Source of the DNA: Thiomargarita sp.
Lineage (GTDB): Bacteria; Pseudomonadota; Gammaproteobacteria; Beggiatoales; Beggiatoaceae
NCBI GenBank assembly: GCA_020721045.1
Contig: DYNN01000007.1
Span: 1 to 45,490, forward strand
Length of the DNA: 45,490 nt
Reading direction: 5' to 3'
Part shown: positions 43,997 through 45,490 of the stretch, piece by piece
Position numbering within the stretch: the stretch's first letter is position 1
Layout of the letters: each line of letters opens with the position of its first letter
The notes under the pieces: model-generated
The model's input: only the letters and a program-made list of their open reading frames with translations
The model's database searches: none
Told to the model about the DNA's origin: nothing
Program-made: the position numbers and the translations under genes

Positions 43997-44491
43997 ATGA
44001 CATATATTCTTGGTATTGATCCTGGTTCTCGTATAACCGGTTTTGGCATTATTGAAAGCACTAAACAACAGTTACTATACGTTGTCAGCGGTTGTATACA
44101 TGTACAAGAAACGACATTACCCTTACGTTTACATGAAATTTATATGGGCGTATCTGAAATTATCGAGCAATATCAACCAACAATTTTAGCTATCGAAAAA
44201 GTATTTATGTATCGTAATGCAGATTCTGCACTCAAACTAGGGCAAGCCCGAGGTGCCGCAATTGTAGCATGTGTGCAACAAGCATTAGCTGTTTATGAAT
44301 ACGCACCAAATCAAATCAAACAAGCGATTGTCGGACAAGGACACGCACACAAAATGCAGGTACAACAAATGGTTAAAGTGCTGCTCTCTTTGCCAGCAAT
44401 TCCGCCACCAGATGCAGCTGACGCTTTGGCAACCGCCTTATGTCATGCTCATTACATTCAATCATTAACCAAGCAAACATTATTAAGTTAA
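43997..44491 (+). CDS. ruvC: Holliday junction endonuclease RuvC
   Basis: The 164-residue nuclease resolves four-way DNA junctions together with RuvAB. Catalytic acids are visible: Asp in [14 protein letters not shown] (residue 7), Glu in AIEKVFM, and the two Asp in [13 protein letters not shown] near the end. The length is near the usual 170 residues. The common yebC, ruvA and ruvB neighbours are absent, so it appears to stand alone, followed by a long non-coding stretch. Confidence 0.96.
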
Positions 44492-45292: not shown

Positions 45293-45322
45293 AAAATAAC
45301 TACCAAATTAAGGAGATATTGA

Positions 45323-45490
45323 ATGAAATTTGCTAAAACCACTCTTGCTGCTATTTTAGGTGTTGCTTTAACCGGTACCGTCGTCGCTATGGAAGAAGGT
45401 ATGGCTGGCATGGAAGGTATGGCTGGCATGGAAGGCATGGCTGGTATGGAAGGCATGGCTGGTATGGAAGGCATGGCTGGTATGGAAGGC
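45323..45490 (+). CDS. Secreted MAGMEG-repeat protein, N-terminal part (runs off the window)
   Basis: No known family is recognised. AAGGAG 7 bases before the ATG is a strong ribosome site. The frame encodes a signal peptide of 22 residues (MKFAKTTLAAILGVALTGTVVA), then MEEG and five consecutive MAGMEG hexapeptides; the window ends exactly at a repeat boundary with the frame open. Met and Gly each recur at every third residue, so the mature chain is a Gly-Met-x triplet repeat. At DNA level this is an 18-bp tandem repeat (45401-45490) differing only at some wobble T/C positions, which suggests recent expansion. The Met spacing resembles soft-metal (copper) ligands, and the Gly spacing resembles collagen-like or polyglycine-II chains. 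Both are inference. Confidence 0.85.
   Translation, partial: MKFAKTTLAAILGVALTGTVVAMEEGMAGMEGMAGMEGMAGMEGMAGMEGMAGMEG
45401..45490 (+). repeat. 18-bp tandem repeat, five copies to the window edge
   Basis: Five head-to-tail units encode MAGMEG. The units differ only by T/C at the last base of the Gly codons. The array continues past the window. Each unit carries a GGAAGG word just before an ATG, so internal ribosome-site-like words recur every 18 bases. Confidence 0.9.

Follow-up and report, generated by a model that had tools for sequence, protein, structure and literature searches.

The Met-x-Gly gene at the end of the window

The window, meaning the whole 45,490-nucleotide stretch of Thiomargarita sp. 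DNA that was analysed, ends inside a gene of contig C4 (60,204 bp) with the following features.

43997..44491, + strand: upstream neighbour, ruvC-like, named by reading the sequence and outside the proposed function
45311..45315, + strand: ribosome-binding site AGGAG, read in the sequence
45323, + strand: start codon ATG of the Met-Gly gene, read in the sequence
45323..45388, + strand: Sec-type signal peptide MKFAKTTLAAILGVALTGTVVA, with a V-x-A cleavage site judged by eye
45389..45400, + strand: start of the mature chain, MEEG
45401..45490, + strand: five MAGMEG units of 18 bp each; the gene runs on past a 100-N gap
C4:45491-45590, outside the window: 100-N scaffold gap inside the gene
C4:45873, outside the window: stop of the gene; the array resumes after the gap and ends MEGMESK-stop
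C4:45925-45955, outside the window: terminator-like hairpin past the stop of the gene

The original prediction of a secreted Gly-Met-x chain, with signal peptide, MEEG and five MAGMEG units at 45323-45490, is confirmed, start and repeats lying exactly at these positions. It had also described the gene as cut by the window edge; the gene does continue, and the edge itself turns out to be the beginning of an assembly gap. Beyond the gap come (MAGMEG)3, APAAG, MEG and MSGMEG units, MEGMEGMKGMEG, further MSGMEG and finally MEGMESK. Because the array resumes past the gap and ends in a stop, the two parts form one gene, which stands alone between ruvC (+) on one side and priA (-) on the other, both named from reading the sequence. 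One hundred N is a usual placeholder length, so the repeat count of the assembled sequence is provisional. Taken literally it breaks the frame; a true gap length of 2 modulo 3 would put both sides in one frame. The identical 18-bp units on both sides of the gap fit a repeat collapse during assembly. Runs of N are present inside Gly-Met-x arrays of several assemblies, at L008 (1092-1191) and in genes of L070, L075 and L145, so that draft genomes often have such genes interrupted or of the wrong size.

The signal peptide is followed by strict Met-x-Gly triplets in which x is mostly Ala, Glu or Ser. The 127 known mature residues, gap excluded, comprise 31.5% Met, 31.5% Gly and 19% Glu, with one Pro and neither His nor Cys; the repeat, M-A/S/E-G, has no Asp and few Lys. 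The register of 11 Met and 11 Gly has a chance probability of ~1e-30 for the residue frequencies assumed. Structure prediction of the C-terminal repeat from the single sequence gave a mean pLDDT of 56 and a pTM of 0.13.

A joined query of the two gap sides, made without the missing middle, gave matches to collagen models of Pfam and NCBIfam, together with one weak, sub-threshold repeat model; the NCBIfam collagen scores of the protein are far under the cut-offs. Such matches are no evidence of collagen, because a model with Gly at every third position rewards any such chain and the protein has a single Pro. The collagen-like reading in the original prediction is thus unlikely to hold as true collagen, and its statement that no specific described family applies holds for the libraries searched, the matches being driven by periodicity. 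No description of this Gly-Met-x (GMx) class turned up in those libraries or in the open papers that we searched.

GMx relatives and their association with a DmsA-like molybdoenzyme

Homologues combining a signal peptide with the repeat exist in the same genome, which encodes further GMx proteins, and in relatives, which encode many. Those of the same genome and its relatives come in several settings. On C45, two GMx proteins lie near a histidine kinase with a c-heme motif and an NtrC-type regulator, and the contig stops inside the second. C160 begins in a GMx frame, followed by a pentaheme cytochrome, a DmsA-like molybdoenzyme, and DmsB-like and TorD-like proteins; we infer from these contig ends that C45 and C160 join at their GMx ends. 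C59 (L009 4129-5103) encodes an FKBP-type prolyl isomerase whose N-terminal region is rich in Gly and Met and contains MAGMDTMSGMTSMEGM repeats. Two tandem secreted proteins of C241 (L069 2660-4518) have a Gly-Met-rich part and then an Ala-rich part, the latter probably a coiled-coil; a similar protein is encoded at L077 5805-6524. Small secreted proteins with a VAGxxPxQRPxGAP motif lie beside operon-borne GMx genes (L010 3983-4399 and 5742-6143) and, for those that were scanned, have no match in Pfam or NCBIfam. A further short motif, of the type GW/YF...G-L/I-x-F/L-YP, is repeated in a neighbour protein (L085 6207-7031) and recurs inside GMx proteins of L071, L074, L084, L085 and L088.

The gene order GMx, pentaheme cytochrome, DmsA-like enzyme, usually with DmsB-like and TorD-like proteins, is repeated in many genomes, both within the family and class and elsewhere in the phylum, covering at least two of its classes. 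The genes were named from motif searches and reading, with family models run on ten proteins of three loci. A same-strand GMx array lies upstream of the enzyme, within about 2.5 kb, at 27 of 34 readable enzyme loci, some of which had been fetched because of GMx, and the nearest array is downstream at none of the 34; among the loci fetched for the enzyme and not for GMx, the array is upstream in 14 of 21. An array was called from at least five hits of a five-triplet DNA pattern, a cut used because many genomes with 1-3 hits look by their sequence like presumed carriers of a GroEL-type GGM tail. By this call, arrays occur in 16/16 genomes with the enzyme versus 4/353 without it in the class sample (p = 1e-24) and in 16/17 versus 2/41 among relatives (p = 3e-11), p values that are only indicative since the samples overlap, ancestry is shared and the threshold was chosen after the counts had been seen. 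Thresholds of 3 and 8 hits gave similar co-occurrence in relatives. Two relatives, G006 and G034, have GMx arrays without the DmsA-like enzyme. The enzyme is present in the MAG "Thiotrichaceae bacterium isolate S06.Bin195" (G780; the enzyme has the same coordinates in G007), whose ruvC locus carries no GMx gene. The window gene is an orphan: it lies outside the enzyme operon and adjoins neither the DmsA-like enzyme nor MsrP.

Operon-borne GMx genes are often found near the c-heme histidine kinase, the NtrC-type regulator and sigma54-like sites. The latter were scored against TGGCAC-N5-TTGCW, with GG and GC obligatory, over the 500 bp that precede 29 GMx or neighbouring genes, picked by hand from 18 loci. 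At least one gene has a site scoring ≥8 in 14 of the 18 loci, a score that can arise by chance at a background of 0.34 sites per kb per strand; sites scoring ≥10, with a background of 0.016, occur in 10 loci. Within the same 500 bp, no site ≥8 was found at L075, L069, L009 and L077, nor for several genes of the positive loci. A (MKGMEG)n gene of G006 (L070 9287-9751), a genome with no DmsA-like enzyme at the threshold used, has a strong site 114 bp upstream. The 831 bp upstream of the window gene contain no site scoring ≥7, and the simple idea that the gene belongs to the regulon of the operon was therefore dropped. This distribution suggests sigma54 control for many operon-borne GMx genes and a different control for the window gene.

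The enzyme beside operon-borne GMx genes is putatively of the S/N-oxide reductase type, as judged from model and structure matches. Among family models, those of DMSO/selenate and S/N-oxide reductases match the L071 copy best, with scores under their cut-offs (598.8 bits for the DmsA/YnfE NCBIfam model, cut-off 777.7), and its closest structure matches are DMSO and TMAO reductases. At the position of the Ser that ligates Mo in DMSO reductase, 24/24 aligned sequences have Ser. Sulfoxide reduction by DorA-like proteins is described as requiring an SYGW motif (PMC7402097); the position reads SYAG in 23 of the 24 enzymes and AYAG in one, so that Tyr is kept and Trp absent, and the requirement may not apply to DmsA-like enzymes. 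Protein-bound Met sulfoxide is reduced by DorA (PMC7402097) and by BisA (PMC10653797). The genome of the window (G000, rated 99.9% complete) encodes the DmsA-like enzyme on C160 and MsrP, above cut-off, on C11, and gave no match to MsrB (SelR). Within the family, MsrP above cut-off is found in 11/15 genomes with the DmsA-like enzyme versus 5/22 without (p = 0.006, likewise only indicative given the shared ancestry).

A possible methionine redox buffer and the alternatives

In 18 GMx-rich proteins, mostly operon-borne, the Met slot of G-?-x-G positions is occupied by Met 1020 times, by Leu once and by Ile, Val or Phe never; the 106 Gly entries of this count include out-of-register matches, and it is less biased than an earlier count that favoured perfect triplets. 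The third bases of Gly codons and the x position do vary. As Leu, Ile and Val are almost never accepted at the slot, the thioether itself, and not only hydrophobicity, seems to be selected in GMx proteins.

We tentatively favour the hypothesis, possible though short of likely, that the secreted window protein, probably located in the periplasm, serves as a methionine redox buffer, a chemistry covered by neither of the two readings in the original prediction. With three residues per turn the chain would form an extended polyproline-II-like (PPII) rod. Glycines would line one edge of this rod, a second edge would expose a row of Met thioethers, and the third, of small or acidic residues, would keep it soluble. 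Oxidants such as peroxide or hypochlorite would convert the Met row to sulfoxide, other envelope proteins being spared in this way, and the row would be restored by sulfoxide reductases of the periplasm, MsrP and possibly the DmsA-like enzyme too. Counting against this hypothesis are the lack of SYGW and the sub-cut-off score of the DmsA-like enzyme, together with the two relatives that have arrays without it. Since the class is usually accompanied by a periplasmic sulfoxide-reductase-like molybdoenzyme, its members may be rechargeable methionine buffers, and this is the best supported reading for the operon-borne ones, those tied to the DmsA-like enzyme. In this view the window copy stands alone: as an orphan outside the operon and devoid of a sigma54-like site, it is assigned the putative role from its resemblance to them and from the presence of MsrP and the DmsA-like enzyme in the genome.

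That Gly-edged PPII rods instead pack into bundles or coats is somewhat doubtful. They could form a periplasmic sulfur globule envelope or a cytochrome-molybdoenzyme scaffold, with the Met face in contact with sulfur or with partners. The regular spacing of Gly, one in every three residues, agrees with such packing, and the extended Gly-x-y helix of the original prediction has an experimental precedent in the partial PPII of the GroEL (GGM)n tail (PMC12571646). SoxB occurs in 12/16 operon genomes versus 136/353 others, a modest association, and the named relative carrying the enzyme is a Thiotrichaceae MAG; however, the genome of the window gave no SoxB match above cut-off, and the prolines of known sulfur globule proteins come at regular intervals (PMC10386293, PMC7356093) where the window protein has one Pro. 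Packing alone also leaves the avoidance of Leu, Ile and Val at the Met slot unexplained.

To return to redox chemistry, an unlikely proposal is a methionine-sulfoxide capacitor, in which the secreted Met polymer would be the dedicated substrate of the regulated respiratory DmsA-like enzyme and electrons would be stored or accepted outside the inner membrane.

The sponge for Cu(I)/Ag(I) put forward in the original prediction, in which M-x-x-M spacing would chelate soft metals in the periplasm, is decidedly improbable. Met does recur every three residues and Met-only Cu(I) sites exist, but an unsystematic reading of the ORFs showed no obvious copper or copper-resistance genes beside the window gene and no obvious copper genes beside its relatives, where the recurrent neighbour is a DMSO-reductase-family enzyme. 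The known mature residues moreover lack His and Cys, whereas the N-terminal domain of PcoB, a Met/His copper region, relies on both Met and His (PMC12509749).

It is least probable that a flexible Met face holds unfolded envelope proteins in the manner of the GroEL tail. The GGM tails of GroEL presumably make contact with client proteins (PMC12571646), and the FKBP-type isomerase of C59 also has a Gly-Met-rich N-terminal part, but the window protein is stand-alone and acidic, and the molybdoenzyme link would be left unexplained.

In at least two bacterial classes, the very Met-rich secreted proteins of the GMx class accompany one branch of the DMSO-reductase family, an enzyme group known here from sequence alone, for which they offer a candidate substrate open to testing. 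Should they be that substrate, sulfoxide respiration would acquire a protein polymer as a partner, and the pairing of MrpX with MsrP would have a separate counterpart.

Comparison with known systems

Several known proteins share single traits with the window protein. The (GGM)n tail of GroEL/Hsp60 likewise consists of Gly-Met triplets, with partial polyproline II seen by circular dichroism and simulation (PMC12571646), but it is a short tail of a cytosolic chaperonin with Gly as x, whereas the window gene encodes an entire secreted protein. Collagen-like proteins of bacteria (Scl, Lcl) have the same Gly at every third residue, hence the HMM matches; the window protein differs in its Met after each Gly and its one Pro, its X and Y positions not being rich in Pro. 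Sulfur globule proteins (SgpA-D, ALG67575) are also secreted, repetitive and from sulfur-oxidising bacteria, with a proline spacing that the window protein does not have. Periplasmic copper proteins of the Met/His type pair His with Met; for the window protein, devoid of His, Met-only sites are conceivable.

A close parallel is given by the MXKDX peptides MrpX of Azospira suillum and BcrX of Brucella, which are likewise small and Met-rich and accompany YedYZ/MsrPQ (PMC8315932). In Brucella the peptide gene shares a transcript with the genes for MsrPQ, and resistance to HOCl depends in part on this operon (PMC8315932). As suggested here for GMx proteins, the methionines of these peptides are proposed to be sacrificial, with a partner molybdoenzyme acting on Met sulfoxide (PMC8315932). 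The two systems differ in the repeat, MXKDX versus Met-x-Gly, and in arrangement: the MrpX/BcrX gene is next to MsrPQ/YedYZ, whereas the window gene adjoins ruvC and priA, with MsrP on C11. Unlike in the MrpX/BcrX systems, the enzyme beside operon-borne GMx genes is DmsA-like and accompanied by two-component control.
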